From positions 1,984,001-2,048,000 of the forward strand of contig NZ_CP035534.1 of NCBI RefSeq assembly GCF_009068765.1: a DNA stretch of 64,000 nucleotides, in the 5' to 3' direction. Within the stretch, counting starts at the first letter, position 1. Each line of letters opens with the position of its first letter. Below are positions 51,019-58,970 of the stretch, in pieces. The DNA comes from Sulfurimonas hydrogeniphila (GTDB taxonomy: Bacteria > Campylobacterota > Campylobacteria > Campylobacterales > Sulfurimonadaceae). The position numbers and the translations under genes were made by a program. The notes under the pieces are model-generated. The model was not told the DNA's origin. It saw only the letters and a program-made list of their open reading frames with translations, and did not search any database.

Positions 51019-52308
51019 TCAGTCCTTTAAAAATCTATCCAGTATTTCAATGTTTTTCATATTATTTGTATCAGCCAAAATCTTTATATAGGATTGTAGC
51101 ATATCATACAAGTTATTGATATATTTATAGCGTATATTATAGAGTTTTTGTTTTGCTTTGTTATACTCAATAATACTGCTCAAACCTCTGTCATATTTTA
51201 TCTTTACCGCATCAATGTACTGCTGTGCAGACTTCAGTGCTTCGGCATACAGACTCACAGAGTCCATAGAAGAGTAAAAAAGAGAACGCGCATTTTCATA
51301 CTTCATATTGACCTCTTTTTTTGTATTTTGCAAGTCTTCATAAGCTGCCTGCTTTATCAGTTTTGCCACTTCAACAGCAGCGGAATTGTATCCACCGTCA
51401 TACAATGGCATACTTAAACTCACTACTGCATACTCTGTTTTCACAAAAGGATCTTGAATTGTCAGAGAATTCATATCAGATTTAGAATAGACTACATCCA
51501 GGTCTATTTTGGGATAATACCCTGCTTTTGCCTGTTTAATTTCATACTCTTTCATTTTAAGCACTATATTTGATTGTTTTACATCCACAGATTCTACCTG
51601 ACCGCTCGCAGCTCTTTGCATATCGTACAAAAGGGGCTGCATATCTTTGTGTAACTTTATTTGTGGTATTTCAATACTCTTTTTCCCTGTGTATTCTTGC
51701 AGTTTTTGCACATACGTTTTATATGTTTTTTTTTCTTTATCCAGCTCTATTTTTGCCGAATTATATTCTACCTGCATCTCTAACAAATCTACTTTGTCTG
51801 AAAGTCTCATCACAAACTGTTTTTGTATTTTTGTCTGCATAGAACGGGTGTATGCTATCTGGGACTCTAAAAGTTTTATTTTTGCATCAGAACGCATGGC
51901 ATCAAGATATGCTTGCATTGTATCCTGTGTCAATGCTATTTTTTTCTGTTTTACATCTATATCAGCATATTTTTCACGCTGCTTTTGAAGATTGATTCTC
52001 GCATAAGTTCCTGCATTATATATACTTTGCTTTAAAGAGAGTGCATAGTTTGCTACCGTCTGTTTGCTGACATCCGTAGCATAGTATCTCGCCTTTTTAT
52101 ATGATGCAGAAAGATTCAAATGCGGATAAAGAGCAGATTTTTCCTCTTTTAGCTTTTGTATTTCTGACTGATACATGTAACTTGATGACTTGACTGCATG
52201 TGAATTTTCCAAAGCCAGATTGTAGGCCCTCGAAAAGGTCAGCACTTCTGCATTTAGGGAACCTGCAACAATAAAAAGCAATATACCTGCATATATTTTA
52301 TTCTTCAT
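51019..52308 (-). CDS. TolC family outer-membrane channel of a type I secretion system
   Basis: This 429 aa protein has a signal peptide ([20 protein letters not shown]) and two long helical repeats typical of TolC channels ([17 protein letters not shown]-type and [19 protein letters not shown]). It completes the exporter with the HlyD and ABC genes upstream. The ATG at 52308 has SD GGAG and overlaps hlyD by 11 nt. In C. fetus the equivalent is sapF. Confidence 0.88.
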
Positions 52309-53593
52309 TGAAACTTCTCCCGAGCATATCTCTAAAAGGCTTGACAATATAACTTAAAAAAGTTCTTTGTCCTATATTTATCATTGCTTCAGCAGGCATC
52401 CCCGGTAAAAGTACTATTGATTTACTTTCCAACTCTTTTTTCCCCGCATCTGTAACTTCTATTTTCACAATATAGTAGGATGTGCCATTTCTTTTTTCCG
52501 TAAAACTGTCTGCCGAAACATAAATAACTTTCCCTTTTACTATGTCAAGCTGTGCGACATTAAATGCCGGAAACTTCAATGTTGCTTCAAGCCCTCTATG
52601 TACTTTGTCGATATCTTTTGTCTGAATCTGTGCTTCTACAATCAGGTGTTCATTTTGAGGCACAATACTTAAAATTTCTTCTCCCGGTTTTATAACACCG
52701 CCTACTGTATGTATATTCAGACCAACCACTGTTCCACTGATGGGTGCATTGATATTTGTTTTGCGCAGCTTATCCTCATAAGCAATGATTTGAGACCGCA
52801 AATCTGCTTCATCCGATTTGGCTTTTGCATATTTTTCCAATATTTCCTGCTGAAACTTTTTTTCTCTTAACAACTGCTGATTTTTTGCTTCGACTATCTG
52901 TTCTTTCAGTTTTGCCATATCAAAAGAGTTACTGAGAATTTCACCCTGTAAACTGTTGTATGTTTTTTGCAGTTTTCGTATTTGTTCATTGCTTACAAGC
53001 CGTTCTTTAAAAAGTTCTTTTTGTTCTTTTATTTCTTCGGCAACAGCTTCCAGGTTTTGTTTTTTACTTGCTACCATTGAAGAGAGACTGCTCATCTGAT
53101 TTTCAAGTTCAGTTATTCTGTTTTTGGTAATTTCTCTCTCTTTGTTGTTGCTTTTATGCGTTACATTAAATATTTTCAGTTGAGTACTTCGTGCATTTTG
53201 ATTTTGCAGCTCTTTTGGAAAATCTATCTTTTCTCTTGCCTCTTTCTGTGCTTCGAGTCGAGCTACAAGCGCAATGGTTTCTTGATATTTCGCTTTTGCG
53301 ATAGCAAGTTTTGACTTTATTTCCACATCATCCAGTTTGATAAGAAGATCACCTTTTTGTACCTTGTCACCATTATTTATATAAATCTTTTTTATTGTAC
53401 CGCCATACTGATTTTGAACAGTTTTTTTATAAACTCCCGCAGAAACTTTTCCCGGAGCAACCACAGATGTTTCAAGCGGATTAAACGCTGCCCATACCAG
53501 CAACACAACCATTAACAGCAGTATAAACAGGCCATACTTGATTACTTTTGTTGTATCGTGTGGTGGTAACTCATGTTCTTGATTTTTTTGCAT
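52298..53593 (-). CDS. HlyD family periplasmic adaptor of type I secretion
   Basis: This 431 aa membrane-fusion protein has one N-terminal helix (YGLFILLLMVVLLVWAAF), a lipoyl half-motif (KKIYINNGDKVQKGDLLIKL), a long coiled coil (about 110-270) and a C-terminal beta-barrel. The ATG at 53593 has SD AAGGA 7 nt upstream; an ATG at 53608 overlapping the ABC stop (TAATG) is also possible. In C. fetus the equivalent is sapE. Confidence 0.9.
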   Translation of the reverse strand: MQKNQEHELPPHDTTKVIKYGLFILLLMVVLLVWAAFNPLETSVVAPGKVSAGVYKKTVQNQYGGTIKKIYINNGDKVQKGDLLIKLDDVEIKSKLAIAKAKYQETIALVARLEAQKEAREKIDFPKELQNQNARSTQLKIFNVTHKSNNKEREITKNRITELENQMSSLSSMVASKKQNLEAVAEEIKEQKELFKERLVSNEQIRKLQKTYNSLQGEILSNSFDMAKLKEQIVEAKNQQLLREKKFQQEILEKYAKAKSDEADLRSQIIAYEDKLRKTNINAPISGTVVGLNIHTVGGVIKPGEEILSIVPQNEHLIVEAQIQTKDIDKVHRGLEATLKFPAFNVAQLDIVKGKVIYVSADSFTEKRNGTSYYIVKIEVTDAGKKELESKSIVLLPGMPAEAMINIGQRTFLSYIVKPFRDMLGRSFNEE

Positions 53594-53607
53594 ACTCTTA
53601 TCCTTCA

Positions 53608-55407
53608 TTACTTTTGCGGTTTGCTTAACGAAACTTTTGGCATAGCTGTCTGTTTGCCTGCTGCTTGTGTTTTTGTCTGTGCCTGCTGTTTTGCCTGTTG
53701 TGCTTTTGCTGCTGCCTGTTCATTAAGTTTTGCCAAAACATCATTTGTCGGACCATACATCTGCAGTGTACCTCCGCCGAAAAGTGCTACTCTGTCAGTT
53801 ACCTTTAAAATATCCATCTTATGGGAGATAACCAGGACTGTTGAGCCTATACTTTTTAGGTGTAAAATGGTGTTATTCAACGCCATCTCTCCTTCGGCAT
53901 CAAGATTTGAGTTTGGCTCATCCAGTACTACAAGTACCGGGTTGTTGTATACAGCACGTGCCAGTGCTATTCTTTGTTTTTGTCCGCCTGAAAGTCCAAC
54001 GCCGCCATTGCCTATTGGAGTATCATAGCCATTTGGAAGTTTCAGTATCATTTCATGAACACCGGCCATTTGCGCGGCTGCAACAACTTTTTTATCATCT
54101 ACTTCGCCAAGTCTGGCTATATTTTCTGCAATTGTTCCCTCAAAAAGTTCTATATCCTGTGGTAAATAGCCTATATATTTTCCAAGTTTCTGACTGTCCC
54201 ACTGATGAATATCAGCTCCGTCAATTCTTGCTACACCGCTTTGGATAGGCCAGACACCCAAGATGGCTTTTGCAAATGTCGTTTTTCCACTGCCGCTTGC
54301 CCCTATGATACCTACGGTAATGCCCTGCGGTATATCAATGTTAATTCCCTTGAGCACCGGAAGTTTTGCCATCGGAGGAATAACAATAATATTTTCTGTT
54401 GTAATATGCCCTTTAGGTGCAGGCAGTTCAGTAGTTTCTTTTTCTTCCTGGTAATCTTTGAGCAGGGCATCAAGTCTTTTATAGGCAATTTTTGCATCCG
54501 CAAAACCTTTCCATGAACCTATAAGCAAATCAAGCGGTGCCAAAGCACGCCCAAGCAACACAGCCCCCGCAATAATTGTACCGGCAGAAATATCTCCGTT
54601 AATAGCCAGATAAGCACCGATACCGTAGGTTAATGACTGAAACAACTGTCGCAGTGTTTTACTCAGGTTGGACCATTTTCCCGCATTGTCACTTGCTCGC
54701 GACTGTGTATGCAAAAATTTTATATGCTGTCTGTACCATCTTTTTTTAATATCTTCCTGCATCCCCATGGCATGAATAATTTCTGCATTTTGTATATTTT
54801 TGTTGATATAGAAATTTGCCTTGTTTGAGAGTTTGTTTGCCTCTTCAAGATCTTTTTTTGTACTTCTTTCATTTATGATGGTAATTATAACAATAACCAA
54901 GGCAGCAAAAATTGTAAATCCTGCAAGAAAAGGACTAAACAGATACATTACAAAAAGATAAAAAGGAAACCATGGCACATCAAAAAGGGCAAAAATCCCC
55001 TGTCCCGTCAAATACTGTCTCAATTTTGTCAGATCACTCATCGGCAAAGAAGAAACCTGTCCGGGTTTTAACCGTGCTGTTTCAAAAATAGTGTCAAAAA
55101 GTTTTGTATTCATATCCAGATCTATTTTATTCCCCACCCGAACAAGTATTCGTGAACGAATCATTTGCAGTGCGCCAAGAACAAAAAACAATCCTGTCAC
55201 TAAAACAGTCAGCAAAATCAGCGTATCCATGCTTCGGCTCACCATAACTTTATCATATACCAGCAACATATATATTGACGGCAAAAGCATCAACAGGTTT
55301 ATAAACATGCTGAAAAGACCCGCATGCACAAAAGCATTTTTAGACTTTTTAAGTATTTCAGCCAACGATAATGCTGCTTCACTGTTTTTTGATTGTTTTT
55401 TATTCAT
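53608..55407 (-). CDS. type I secretion ABC transporter (permease/ATPase)
   Basis: This 599 aa half-transporter has six membrane helices in the first half and a nucleotide-binding domain with Walker A IGASGSGKTTFAKAILG, signature VGLSGGQKQRIALARA and Walker B VLVVLDEPNSNLD. It lacks an N-terminal C39 peptidase, as expected for exporters of substrates with C-terminal signals (PrtD/SapD type). The C-terminus ends with an unusual Ala/Gln/Lys-rich tail. Confidence 0.93.
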   Translation of the reverse strand: MNKKQSKNSEAALSLAEILKKSKNAFVHAGLFSMFINLLMLLPSIYMLLVYDKVMVSRSMDTLILLTVLVTGLFFVLGALQMIRSRILVRVGNKIDLDMNTKLFDTIFETARLKPGQVSSLPMSDLTKLRQYLTGQGIFALFDVPWFPFYLFVMYLFSPFLAGFTIFAALVIVIITIINERSTKKDLEEANKLSNKANFYINKNIQNAEIIHAMGMQEDIKKRWYRQHIKFLHTQSRASDNAGKWSNLSKTLRQLFQSLTYGIGAYLAINGDISAGTIIAGAVLLGRALAPLDLLIGSWKGFADAKIAYKRLDALLKDYQEEKETTELPAPKGHITTENIIVIPPMAKLPVLKGINIDIPQGITVGIIGASGSGKTTFAKAILGVWPIQSGVARIDGADIHQWDSQKLGKYIGYLPQDIELFEGTIAENIARLGEVDDKKVVAAAQMAGVHEMILKLPNGYDTPIGNGGVGLSGGQKQRIALARAVYNNPVLVVLDEPNSNLDAEGEMALNNTILHLKSIGSTVLVISHKMDILKVTDRVALFGGGTLQMYGPTNDVLAKLNEQAAAKAQQAKQQAQTKTQAAGKQTAMPKVSLSKPQK

Positions 55408-55424: not shown

Positions 55425-56816
55425 TTAGGCTATATTTTGTTTTTGCATTGTAAGTTTAAAAAGCGTTTCTATGTGTTTGAGTGATTCCAAATGTGCATCT
55501 ATCAAAGTAATAATACCTTTTCTTACCCAGTCTGCCAATATGTCATCACTCAGTGCATTGAGTTTTTCTCGGTCGACCACTTTAAATCCGTTCACAAGAA
55601 CTTTTTTCTCATCACCTTCACCTACAGAAATTTCTCTCTCTTCAAGAATACCGCTTTGACTAATCACTTTGGCAACATTGGCTGTAATCACTGCCTGGTT
55701 TTCATGATTTGTCAAAAATTCTATGGCATGTGTCAACAGTTCTGACTGCTCACCGCTTTTTTTAAAAAGCTGTTTGCCTTTTGATTTTGAAACAAGCGGT
55801 GATTCTTCATCTATGAGAATGACCTTTTGCTCCGGATTTTCTTTCGTACTTGCCAAAGCAAACGGATATTTTCTCAAAAACGACGGAACATACTGTGTAA
55901 TCCATTTTCCTTCTTCATTAATTGCCAAAGAGTCACCGCCAAGTGATACAAGCGCAATAAGTGAAGGATTTTCATCCGCACTGAAAACTACAGGAAAATT
56001 CGAGCCTACTGTTGCCACTTCACTGGCTAAAACAGGAATAAAAGCACTCTGTTTTGCAAAGTTTAAATTTTCCATTGCCGCTATTTTAAGGTCTTTGTGT
56101 TTTTCTTTGTCTAAGACTACTAAATTTTTATACATGGTTTTCCTTTTTTCTTTGGTTTGTTTTTTTGGACGACCTCGACTTTTTGAAGCCAGTGTCATTC
56201 CGACAAGTGATTCTAATTCTTTTATAAATTCAGGAGTTGCTGTTATACTTTGTTTTTCCAGAGAATGTTTGATAAAAGAAATCTTTTTTTCATCTTTTTG
56301 TTCATTAAAAAGTTTTGCATACGCTTCAACCCTTTTTTCATCTGTATAGCCCAATTCTTTATACATTGGATGATAACTTACAATACTGTCTGCTCTACTG
56401 TAAAGGTTTTTACCTATACTGCTAAAAGAATGATTTTTCCCAGCCAATTGTTCAATGTATATCATGACATCAAATAAAAAAGATTTGTCCTCTACAAGAG
56501 AAGCTTTATATCTTCCTTCCCACAGTGTGCCACTGCGCTGGTATTTTTTATTATAGTAACCGACATATCTTCGTCCCAAACTCTGCATAAACTTTGGCAA
56601 AGTATCAGGTGCTGCCGGAGTAGCCAAAAATTCAAAACACTGACTAAGCAAGCTGTAGGCATGAATATGCAGTAAATTATCTGCTGAGAGCTCTTTTACT
56701 ATGTTCATAAATACCGTATAATCATCACTGTCCTTAAAAAGCACCATATCATTGATACTCTTTAAAAGTACATGCTGTGATAAATTCTCTACAAAAACTC
56801 TGGTTTTCCGTGCCAA
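55425..56816 (-). CDS. RAYT-like transposase domain fused to SapC domain
   Basis: This 463 aa protein starts at TTG with SD AAGGA 6 nt upstream. Residues 1-130 look like a REP-associated (Y1) transposase domain: RSGTLWEGRYKASLVED and MIYIEQLAG match, but the HUH site reads SQCFEF at 58-63, so both metal-binding His are replaced (Cys60, Glu62). An AT-hook-like RGRPKK (214-219) follows. From Met228 (MYKNLVVLDKEKH) to about 440 it is a SapC-family domain. The Met228 codon (56135) has its own SD (AAAAGGA, 5 nt upstream), so SapC alone may also be made. The gene heads a T1SS operon as sapC does in C. fetus. SapC function is unknown. Confidence 0.8.
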   Translation of the reverse strand: MARKTRVFVENLSQHVLLKSINDMVLFKDSDDYTVFMNIVKELSADNLLHIHAYSLLSQCFEFLATPAAPDTLPKFMQSLGRRYVGYYNKKYQRSGTLWEGRYKASLVEDKSFLFDVMIYIEQLAGKNHSFSSIGKNLYSRADSIVSYHPMYKELGYTDEKRVEAYAKLFNEQKDEKKISFIKHSLEKQSITATPEFIKELESLVGMTLASKSRGRPKKQTKEKRKTMYKNLVVLDKEKHKDLKIAAMENLNFAKQSAFIPVLASEVATVGSNFPVVFSADENPSLIALVSLGGDSLAINEEGKWITQYVPSFLRKYPFALASTKENPEQKVILIDEESPLVSKSKGKQLFKKSGEQSELLTHAIEFLTNHENQAVITANVAKVISQSGILEEREISVGEGDEKKVLVNGFKVVDREKLNALSDDILADWVRKGIITLIDAHLESLKHIETLFKLTMQKQNIA

Positions 56817-56925
56817 GCAAATTCCTTGATTTATTCTCAGAATGCATTGTAGTAGAATAAAACTTTATTGTTTATTAAATCACTCCGACACTGTTTTTAT
56901 TTTAAATAATTGGTGCCATAGTGAT

Positions 56926-57381
56926 TTAAAAATTTTCTGCAATTCCCCAGTTAATATTTGGTATCGCACTTTTTAAAACATGAAATATCTCCTGCATAAC
57001 AAAAGCATCTACAACTGCTGTTGCAAGAATATTTTGAGATGCCAATGATATTTTTATCTCATTTTTTGCCTGTAAGGTAAAATTTACTTCCATAAGCAAC
57101 TCTTCTTTTGTTCTATAAAGCTCAAGATTGACTCCGTCAGTTTCTGTCCGTGCTGATACAGCAGAATTTTTATTTTCCTGTATTGTCCGGATCGGAGTAT
57201 CAAGAGAAAAATGTTTTTCAAGAAACTCTTGGGCAGTCGGAATCAGATCTAAAATAAAATTTCTTGTAATCATAAAATCTATTCGGTTGTGTATGTCTTC
57301 ATAATTAATGACAAAGCGTATCCGGTCTTCTACCACATCATAAATTGGTGTAAATGTTTGTGCAGTTACTGTTTTTTTCAT
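56926..57381 (-). CDS. hypothetical protein next to the secretion locus
   Basis: This 151 aa protein has alternating beta and helical segments (RIRFVINYEDIHNRIDFMITR, shown in part) and no signal peptide or membrane helix. I do not recognise it. It lies upstream of the RAYT-SapC gene on the same strand, separated by 109 nt, and may belong to the same system. Its start at ATG 57381 is natural; a T-rich stretch follows its 3' end. Confidence 0.6.
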   Translation of the reverse strand: MKKTVTAQTFTPIYDVVEDRIRFVINYEDIHNRIDFMITRNFILDLIPTAQEFLEKHFSLDTPIRTIQENKNSAVSARTETDGVNLELYRTKEELLMEVNFTLQAKNEIKISLASQNILATAVVDAFVMQEIFHVLKSAIPNINWGIAENF

Positions 57382-57539: not shown

Positions 57540-58970
57540 TTATATCACGACCATAGTATTATCCTGAAAATAAATACCTGTCAAATCAATAAACTCCTGC
57601 GAATTTGAAAACCCTACAACCACATCAGCCTGTGTAAATCCCTTGTTCATTGCTTCTTCCCAATAGAGTAAACCGTCGGTATCTGCGCTTCGAAACAAAA
57701 CATTTTCATACAGAGAATTTATAAATTCTGCATTTGTCTGTGAAACACCGTACAAAGAGCTAAACTCAGCAGAAAGTACAAAAGAGTTTGCAATATCGTT
57801 AATACTCTGTCCGTTGTTAAGGTTATTTACCCAGTAGTTTAAACCGGCGCTGTCTGCAACCCTGTCCAAAACAGCAAGGTAAAGTCTTCCTATAGCCGCT
57901 TCACTGCTTTGAGTATAAAAAACAGTACTTCTTTGGTAGGCAGTAAGGTTTACTGCAACGCTGTCAATATAAAGTGCTTCTACGTTTGTAAGCACATCAA
58001 AACCGGTATCTGTTCCCGCTACTACAATAGTATTGTTAAAATAATCCACTCTCGGCACCCAGGTAATACCTTCTTCATACACAGTATCATACCCATTCCC
58101 TGCATCTACGTTATTATTGAGAGAATTGAGAACAATTGTATCAGAAGATTGACTTCCGACAATATTTTCTATATAAGTATCTTCAGTTAATGCCAGATAG
58201 TGTTTCACTTGACCATTTATAATGATACTTTGTGCACCCGGATTTATATCAATATATTCATTCCCTGATGCACTGAGAGATTCAAGTGAAATTGTATCAT
58301 TCCCTCCAAAATCATAAATAGTTGCGATATTCCCTGTTGTCTGAAAGTTACCATATATCTTCTGGCTGTAAAGCAACGCATTTAAATCATACAAGGTATC
58401 GCCTGTATCCTCTTTCACACCATATATAGTCTGTAATGCCTTAATATCCGCTGCCTGATAGGAAGTAAAAGTATTGATGCCGTTATAAGGATTATAGGAC
58501 ATATCGGTATCATGTATATCTACACCTGGGTAAAAACCGTCTCCAAAAGGATGGCTTAGTCCAAGAGCATGCCCTATTTCATGCATCAATGCAGAATAAC
58601 CAAGCCCTCCATAGCTAAAATCCTCATCATTAAAAGCTGCAGAAATATAAATATCTCCAGAAGGGCTTTTCACATCAGAATAAGGAGTGTAGGCATATCC
58701 GAGAGTTGTCGAATCTGACATATTTTTGTCAGATATGACTATATCTCCTACTCCGCTTGCATCATATATAAAATCTAGATTTATAAGAGCAGTAATATAA
58801 TCAAATATTTTAAAAGCAGCATTTTTGAGTGCTGCTGATACTGTGACACTGCCTTCATAATCTGCAGCAAGTTCATAACTGAGTCTTGAACTCTTAAAGG
58901 AGAAAGAAACCGTTGTTTTGTCCCATTTATCACCATATATTAAACCATCAACCAATTCTTGTGTAGTCAT
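57540..58970 (-). CDS. M10-type metalloprotease with DUF4214, likely T1SS substrate
   Basis: This 476 aa protein has no Sec signal. The zinc motif HEIGHALGLSH (His130, His134, His140) and Met-turn DMSYN (Met157) mark a serralysin-like protease. A middle part (about 220-330) has degenerate RTX-like strands (GGNDTISLESL, GNGYDTVYEEG) but no true GGxGxD repeats. Residues about 357-476 hold DUF4214 repeats (LYLAVLDRVADSAGLNYWV). The end DNTMVVI is an acidic-hydrophobic tail typical of T1SS signals. Export by the nearby tolC-hlyD-ABC genes is inferred. Confidence 0.85.
   Translation of the reverse strand: MTTQELVDGLIYGDKWDKTTVSFSFKSSRLSYELAADYEGSVTVSAALKNAAFKIFDYITALINLDFIYDASGVGDIVISDKNMSDSTTLGYAYTPYSDVKSPSGDIYISAAFNDEDFSYGGLGYSALMHEIGHALGLSHPFGDGFYPGVDIHDTDMSYNPYNGINTFTSYQAADIKALQTIYGVKEDTGDTLYDLNALLYSQKIYGNFQTTGNIATIYDFGGNDTISLESLSASGNEYIDINPGAQSIIINGQVKHYLALTEDTYIENIVGSQSSDTIVLNSLNNNVDAGNGYDTVYEEGITWVPRVDYFNNTIVVAGTDTGFDVLTNVEALYIDSVAVNLTAYQRSTVFYTQSSEAAIGRLYLAVLDRVADSAGLNYWVNNLNNGQSINDIANSFVLSAEFSSLYGVSQTNAEFINSLYENVLFRSADTDGLLYWEEAMNKGFTQADVVVGFSNSQEFIDLTGIYFQDNTMVVI

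Follow-up and report, generated by a model that had tools for sequence, protein, structure and literature searches.

We found that Sulfurimonas hydrogeniphila carried a gene in which a REP-associated tyrosine transposase (RAYT) domain was fused in frame to SapC, and that this gene was preceded by a conserved palindrome akin to a transposon end. On balance, we favour the reading that a domesticated transposase and its own terminal repeat would together form an autoregulator of the adjoining T1SS operon, with two nested products made from one gene. The stretch of DNA analysed, hereafter the window, was 64,000 nucleotides long and contained the following features.

55425-56816 (-): RAYT-SapC fusion gene, 463 aa, single open frame, TTG start
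56151-56816 (-): RAYT/TIRYT domain, residues 1-222, with a GRPKK tail at its end (from the match to 4er8 and the GRP-type tails of standalone relatives)
55425-56135 (-): SapC domain from the internal ATG (Met228), 236 aa (from Pfam and the codon test)
56823-56827 (-): Shine-Dalgarno AAGGA for the TTG start of the full-length product
56141-56147 (-): internal Shine-Dalgarno AAAAGGA for SapC (codon test)
56631-56639 (-): lost HUH site, Cys60-Phe61-Glu62 (alignment of the fusions)
56457-56459 (-): former catalytic Tyr120
56872-56932 (-): conserved palindrome with arms at 56872-56891 and 56913-56932; related to TIRYT terminal repeats and a candidate operator
56846-56874 (-): promoter-like TAAACA / TACAAT with a 17-nt spacer, between the palindrome and TTG (consensus match only)
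53608-55407 (-): T1SS ABC transporter, directly after the fusion gene in the operon
52298-53608 (-): T1SS HlyD-type adaptor
51019-52347 (-): T1SS outer-membrane TolC-type protein

The fusion gene and its predicted fold

The earlier note on this DNA had described a RAYT-type N-terminal domain whose frame ran on into a full SapC domain, and both parts of this description held. Within the 463-aa frame, residues 235-452 matched SapC (Pfam PF07277) along the entire profile (1-220 of 220; E 7.9e-62, 209.2 bits vs. a cut-off of 28.9). The N-terminal part matched Y1_Tnp at residues 9-123 below the curated Pfam cut-off (E 0.0021, 18.6 bits vs. 23), and its match to REP_Tyr_transpos (NCBIfam) was weak (E 0.01, 15.7 bits vs. 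80). For a fusion with an intact HUH site (L005), Y1_Tnp passed with 57.9 bits and REP_Tyr_transpos, at 63.8 bits, did not. The AlphaFold2 model of the window protein (mean pLDDT 87.9, 43 aligned sequences) had its best PDB match in 4er8 (Foldseek E 3.1e-6), a REP-associated tyrosine transposase with a bound REP hairpin, and model residues 3-188 could be aligned with it over 147 residues (VIA Z 14.9, rmsd 2.6 A). The model thus places a RAYT fold in the fusion protein and extends it past residue 130; a prediction lacking the Y1 fold, which would have spoken against the earlier note, was not obtained. SapC alone had no clear sequence relative in the PDB (best E 0.17), and the VIA run barely covered this part.

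The motif RGRPKK had been read as an added AT-hook. This reading was ruled out by the GRP-type tails that ended eight of the ten standalone relatives, the exceptions being L117 (GRS) and L123 (none). The parts of the protein belong to known families. Because neither the HUH site nor the curated scores supported a working RAYT, we file the fusion as a protein of the domesticated-transposase kind instead.

Distribution of the fusion and its neighbours

The fusion was present in 12 of 397 genomes of the phylum (11 near full length; G431 split across two contigs) and in 22 of 120 congeneric genomes. Among the best 80 of 234 relatives there were at least 36 SapC-bearing fusion loci (L077-L112), which came from Sulfurimonas, Sulfurovum, Sulfurospirillum, Arcobacter-type and other Campylobacterota records and represented several families of the phylum. 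The counts given below refer to 33 complete genes, the window included. Left out were L105 and L107, which ran into contig ends, L101 because of its internal stop and L098 because of masked bases; L113 and L115 were N-terminal pieces only, and L086, L088 and L112 were near-copies. The RAYT parts of all 33 grouped in a single clade (100/99) when compared with 10 standalone and 3 HisS-fused relatives. Conservation across Campylobacterota, which the earlier note had left to be checked, was therefore found in at least 33 complete genes. Its proviso that the two parts might always be separate genes, joined here by a sequencing error that removed a stop, was ruled out by the same 33 fusions, one of them in the complete genome of Sulfurospirillum diekertiae JPD-1.

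In the window, the fusion gene was located directly upstream of the ABC, HlyD and TolC-type (OEP) genes, and an ABC gene came next in 35 of 36 fusion loci, L110 being the exception. On the upstream side, positions 56926-57381 encoded a 151-aa protein with no Pfam match; its relatives recurred upstream of the fusion in many further loci, in some cases in the opposite orientation. Near the T1SS operon, positions 57540-58970 also encoded a DUF4214 protein, which weakly matched an M10/reprolysin-like metallopeptidase and is a possible secreted substrate.

Another type of fusion was observed in Vibrio fujianensis, Photobacterium kishitanii and a Pseudogulbenkiania MAG, where RAYT-like domains were joined to PF13393 (histidyl-tRNA-synthetase-like) in proteins of 609-634 aa (L114:6001-7905, L124:6001-7881 and L122 from 4239). 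The RAYT-like domain of these proteins had no HUH motif, Y1_Tnp was found in two of the three, and in the tree they were sister to the SapC fusions (93/82). This suggests that the transposase-fusion route was used more than once.

The palindrome upstream of the fusion

The earlier note had alluded to repeats that it did not specify; what we found near the gene was a conserved palindrome. Upstream of the fusions, the palindrome had approximately the form ACTATGGCAC - 21 nt - GTGTCGGAGT. Its arms were 80% complementary in the window and perfect (GTATCYGACCCT / AGGGTCRGATAC) at the HUH-intact loci L103, L106 and L108. The right half-site reached 1.88 bits per position and the left one 0.64, compared with 0.07 in the far upstream region and 0.29 in the vicinity of the start (29 of 35 sequences, without the near-copies L088, L097 and L112 and without L103, L106 and L108). 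In 28 of 35 sequences, the half-site and the start were 70-79 nt apart; in the other 7, the distance fell outside this range.

Over the 35 sequences, 82% of the cells were paired, vs. 30-48% in slid registers. Cells changed on both sides numbered 38; the shuffles gave 23.4 +- 3.3, and none of the 500 reached this value. Related sequences can, however, top shuffles without any structure. Two of the five measures did not exceed the shuffles, namely the number of pairs altered on both sides (8 vs. 7.3; 208 of 500) and further pair types (25 vs. 22.8; 81 of 500). Moreover, only in 14 of 37 regions was the palindrome both the best upstream hairpin and superior to every one of 20 shuffles, and the left arm was degenerate in, e.g., L092, L097 and L104. 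We therefore regard the conservation of the half-site as a strong fact of these alignments and the pairing as a moderate one.

Several other identities of the palindrome were considered. A general role as terminator of the upstream gene was rejected, as no terminator-like site was found (0) and the palindrome persisted where a relative of that gene was not found or was on the other strand. A composite transposon with the T1SS as cargo was rejected since no second end was found in the 13-kb loci L103, L106 and L108. A REP population was rejected as well: the palindrome model (R1) had one strong place in the window's own genome (E 4.7e-13; the next at 0.12) and one in the HUH-intact genome G252. 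Within the window, a loose half-element pattern (up to 2 mismatches) matched 13 times vs. 4.6 expected, with the only exact match at 56908, and the other half-element matched 8 times vs. 5.5 expected. An exact copy of ACTCTGACAC, the inverse half-site, stood alone at 1458-1467, far from the fusion, and is probably due to chance.

A candidate operator of probable transposon origin

The half-site core GGGTCRGA fitted GGGGWSAS, the motif published for TIRYTs (given in the accessible part of PMC3733652). It was found within 100 nt upstream of eight of the ten standalone RAYTs (all except L119 and L121), and its inverse within 140 nt downstream of six (L116, L118, L120, L121, L125 and L127). By these matches, the half-site of the palindrome is of the transposon-end type. 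A REP or TIR element thus adjoined the RAYT-SapC gene in the form of a 5' palindrome with a TIR half-site core; no genome-wide repeat family was seen in the window's own genome, and no downstream copy at L103, L106 and L108.

In congeneric genomes, R1 matched at E<1e-8 in 22 of 120, which were exactly the 22 with the fusion, and the other 98 included 2 with weak matches only (0.064 and 0.097). This agreement was largely obtained by construction because 19 of the 22 loci had served for training R1 (G297, G369 and G436 were outside; G486, which is L112, was inside). In the order, R1 matched at E 0.001 in 8 of 298 genomes, all of which had the fusion, and in the fusion genome G434 it gave only 0.0125, at the right place. 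Among 17 control loci with a standalone sapC, there was no match at E<0.1 (best 0.15, L050); the tree contained 20 standalone sapC sequences, of which one was L110's own and L014 and L049 were outside the R1 scan.

The locus L110 (G047) deserves a separate description. Here the T1SS was preceded by a standalone sapC that lacked the RAYT part; in the tree, this sapC fell inside the clade of fused SapC sequences (98/92 and 98/91, with weak support for its lower placement). The palindrome was located 74 nt before the ATG of this sapC (R1 E 2.2e-7, outside the training set), and an HUH-intact RAYT-SapC gene diverged from the same 200-nt gap. An operator served in trans would be expected to show such an arrangement.

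The earlier note had proposed that the protein might repress its own T1SS operon, and the candidate operator supports the idea of autoregulation as such. The main alternative is that the palindrome serves an unrelated host regulator as its operator and that RAYT-SapC acts at some other place, e.g. as a module for protein-protein contacts in the secretion machine. The link between protein and site was drawn from sequence, the position of the palindrome would also suit a standard dimeric regulator, and R1 gave no significant match at the ends of standalone RAYTs (best E 1.4, L125). However, the half-site core by itself was common to most standalone RAYTs compared, and neither the scanned genomes without the fusion nor the standalone-sapC controls yielded a strong palindrome match. 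We consider an unrelated regulator unlikely.

Two predicted starts in one gene

As the earlier note had claimed, the ATG of Met228 was preceded by AAAAGGA at a distance of 5 nt. The internal start codon was ATG in 31 of 33 fusions, TTG in L111 and ATA in L110, where the sapC before the T1SS was separate and the internal ATG of the fusion was gone. The first start codon of the fusions was TTG in 31 of 33 and GTG in 2; all ten standalone relatives compared started with ATG.

The codon test, in which 30 of the 33 sequences could be scored, gave counts rather than a p-value as the sequences were related. When Arg occupied position -3, it was encoded by AGG in 17 of 19 cases, vs. 6% of 527 other Arg codons. 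When Gly was at -3 or -4, GGA was used in 10 of 10 cases, vs. 32% of 611 Gly codons, and fusions with Gly in place of Arg still kept AGGA in the DNA. This bias towards AGG and GGA bears out the suggested internal start as one that is selected at the nucleotide level. From this codon-level selection we infer that the gene yields two nested products.

Selection on the RAYT part

For 11 pairs with dS<1 in both parts, dN/dS was 0.08-0.41 in the RAYT part and 0.04-0.29 in SapC. Thus, the domain that the earlier note had described as deprived of its HUH site was still under selection. It evolved faster than SapC, with a median dN ratio of 1.6 over 528 pairs. Across 43 RAYT sequences 14 columns were invariant, including Tyr84, Asn89, Lys90, Lys91, Tyr92 and Arg102, and seven of the 14 fell within Tyr84-Tyr92, which in the model formed the end of the helix after the HUH strand. 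In TnpAREP, the REP contacts are located on a conserved DNA-binding helix, according to the accessible text of PMC8266576, and we infer that the helix at Tyr84-Tyr92 corresponds to it. The linker between GRPKK and SapC varied in letters and length, yet the frame remained open in 33 of the 34 genes that were full-length and unmasked. This speaks for a requirement for the fused product too.

The exception was L101:6001-7383 (G004), in which codon 109, within the RAYT part and outside the linker, read TAG, and the SapC part was intact and retained the internal ATG and the Shine-Dalgarno sequence. Either this genome can do without the full-length protein or its assembly contains an error; the locus can be regarded as a natural example of SapC production that relies solely on the internal start. 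In G368, a contig end carried an additional RAYT part that was broken (L115:6001-6550, contig C7), with 8 stops and its own palindrome upstream, which was detected as a second R1 match in that genome. G368 also had a full-length fusion with an open frame but with masked bases.

These two loci, together with the TTG start, the loss of the HUH site in most fusions and the faster evolution of the RAYT part, might suggest that the RAYT frame is a mere leader whose translation is coupled to that of sapC, or a decaying passenger, the domain itself being idle. Such a role seems doubtful, with only a slight chance of being correct: dN/dS was far below 1, nearly all frames were open, the six residues named above did not vary, and the palindrome of the transposon-end type was retained with the gene. 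We therefore take the RAYT part, by its substitution pattern, to be under purifying selection and not a plain relic.

Loss of the catalytic site

The earlier note had pointed to the loss of both His of the HUH site, and this was confirmed for the window protein (Cys60 and Glu62). In addition, its Y---NP motif kept Tyr120, and the Asn four residues on was replaced by Leu and the Pro by Ala. TnpAREP uses a catalytic Tyr with Asn as a metal ligand, as stated in the available part of PMC6006769. Both His were intact in 4 of 33 fusions (L103, L106, L108 and L110), a Phe-x-His was present in one (L104), and 28 had x-Glu with Tyr, Cys, Ser, Phe or Ile at the first position. The Asn ligand was retained in 4 of 33 (L102, L106, L108 and L110) and elsewhere replaced by eight different residues. 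The catalytic Tyr was retained in 32 of 33 fusions and changed to His in L093; beyond the 33, it was His in G297 and Phe in G434. Only 3 of the 33 kept every catalytic residue.

Since 4 of 33 fusions retained the HUH motif, its loss was not inherent in the fusion. The HUH-intact sequences branched outside a clade of 28 dead ones (96/88), and L104 had lost the first His separately. Judging from this tree, the catalytic residues were lost after the fusion, and the RAYT domain of the fusion is probably catalytically dead. The common Tyr and the frequent Glu could also be read as a re-engineered active site in which Tyr120 and a new Glu make up a different metal site, still able to nick the one palindrome, but this is very improbable given the variety of residues at the first His and at the Asn ligand, the changes of the Tyr itself and a palindrome confined to a single place even in HUH-intact G252.

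Proposed mechanism

Returning to the autoregulator, we propose the following course of events. In an ancestor of several Campylobacterota, a TIR-flanked RAYT (TIRYT) would have arrived directly upstream of the sapC gene of a T1SS operon, and, as the gene anatomy and the trees suggest, its frame would have fused to sapC. The 5' terminal repeat would have stayed before the gene as a palindrome of two half-sites, close upstream of a putative promoter found by consensus match only. Later, as the alignments show, the metal-binding site decayed, with the fold and the rest of the domain retained. In the present state, weak initiation at TTG would give full-length RAYT-SapC, and the internal ATG, behind a Shine-Dalgarno sequence of its own, would give free SapC. 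The RAYT part may bind the palindrome and in this way could set the transcription of the sapC-T1SS operon; a dimer, or contact with the extruded hairpin, would be the likeliest mode of binding. More speculatively, the SapC part might convey the state of the secretion system to the palindrome.

The position of the palindrome would fit repression as well as activation. The box TAAACA overlapped the outer end of the palindrome arm by 3 nt, and both signs fit because a promoter-like pair at this outer edge is expected by chance (1 pair found vs. 2.0 expected in shuffles). The binding mode of known TnpAREP proteins counts against the autoregulator, since, as far as the accessible text of PMC8266576 goes, they bind folded single strands and not duplex operators.

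A fuller version can be put forward tentatively, as possible rather than probable: a secretion-coupled feedback switch made from a transposon. In this switch, a DNA-anchored SapC, joined to the dead RAYT, would coexist with free SapC, the captured end would serve as the operator, and the state of SapC or of the T1SS substrate would decide the occupancy of this operator and thereby the output of the operon. In G047, the operator would act in trans on the sapC operon that had become de-fused.

Significance and comparison with known systems

We found no prior description of the RAYT-SapC combination, the decay series or the retained end in the open-licence literature, and a review of recruited mobile elements (PMC8987985) mentioned neither RAYT nor SapC. 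A survey of the superfamily discarded unexpectedly long proteins as gene fusions or annotation errors, according to the available part of PMC6006769, and such fusions may therefore have been filtered out. The molecular role of SapC was likewise not found in the open-licence literature; if our reading is true, SapC would gain a first link to regulation. Bacteria would also provide a fusion of host protein and transposase with its steps still visible (HUH-intact fusions, one with the site partly lost, most with it fully lost, one broken and one split again) and with a transposon-type end kept before an operon. To our knowledge, RAYTs have no defined host task, and the SapC fusion clade would offer a concrete and testable one. 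RAYTs have been termed domesticated (PMC8266576, in the part available).

The closest known systems differ in several respects. Like the TIRYT/TIRtron elements (Di Nocera 2013, PMC3733652, as far as its accessible part describes them), the fusion had a RAYT-type domain, an adjoining inverted repeat fitting GGGGWSAS, and few or single copies. In contrast to the TIRYTs listed there, all of which conserve the HUH and the Tyr, the HUH was lost in most RAYT-SapC proteins; the domain was fused to SapC, and only the 5' palindrome was present, with no downstream partner seen at the HUH-intact loci L103, L106 and L108. The fusion shared with E. coli TnpAREP/RAYT and REP (4er8; PMC8266576 and PMC6006769) the fold (Z 14.9), the position of the Tyr and an imperfect palindrome, but its metal ligands were lost and no genome-wide repeat family was found.

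A full SapC located directly before ABC, HlyD and TolC genes resembles the SapC of T1SS/S-layer loci (PF07277), such as sapCDEF of Campylobacter fetus in the accessible part of PMC4943207; unlike C. fetus SapC, the protein studied here had a RAYT domain upstream and an internal start. Similar to primate CSB-PGBD3 (PMC3459987, available part), a transposase domain was fused to a host protein whose product would also be made alone. CSB-PGBD3 is derived from a eukaryotic piggyBac and is spliced, whereas the bacterial gene had nested starts and an operator-like end before it.

TldR proteins are nuclease-dead and RNA-guided, have an unrelated fold and are not known to be fused to the gene that they regulate. 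What they have in common with the proposed function of RAYT-SapC is that a transposon-type protein, TnpB in their case, was turned into a regulator of transcription (PMC13418256, accessible part).
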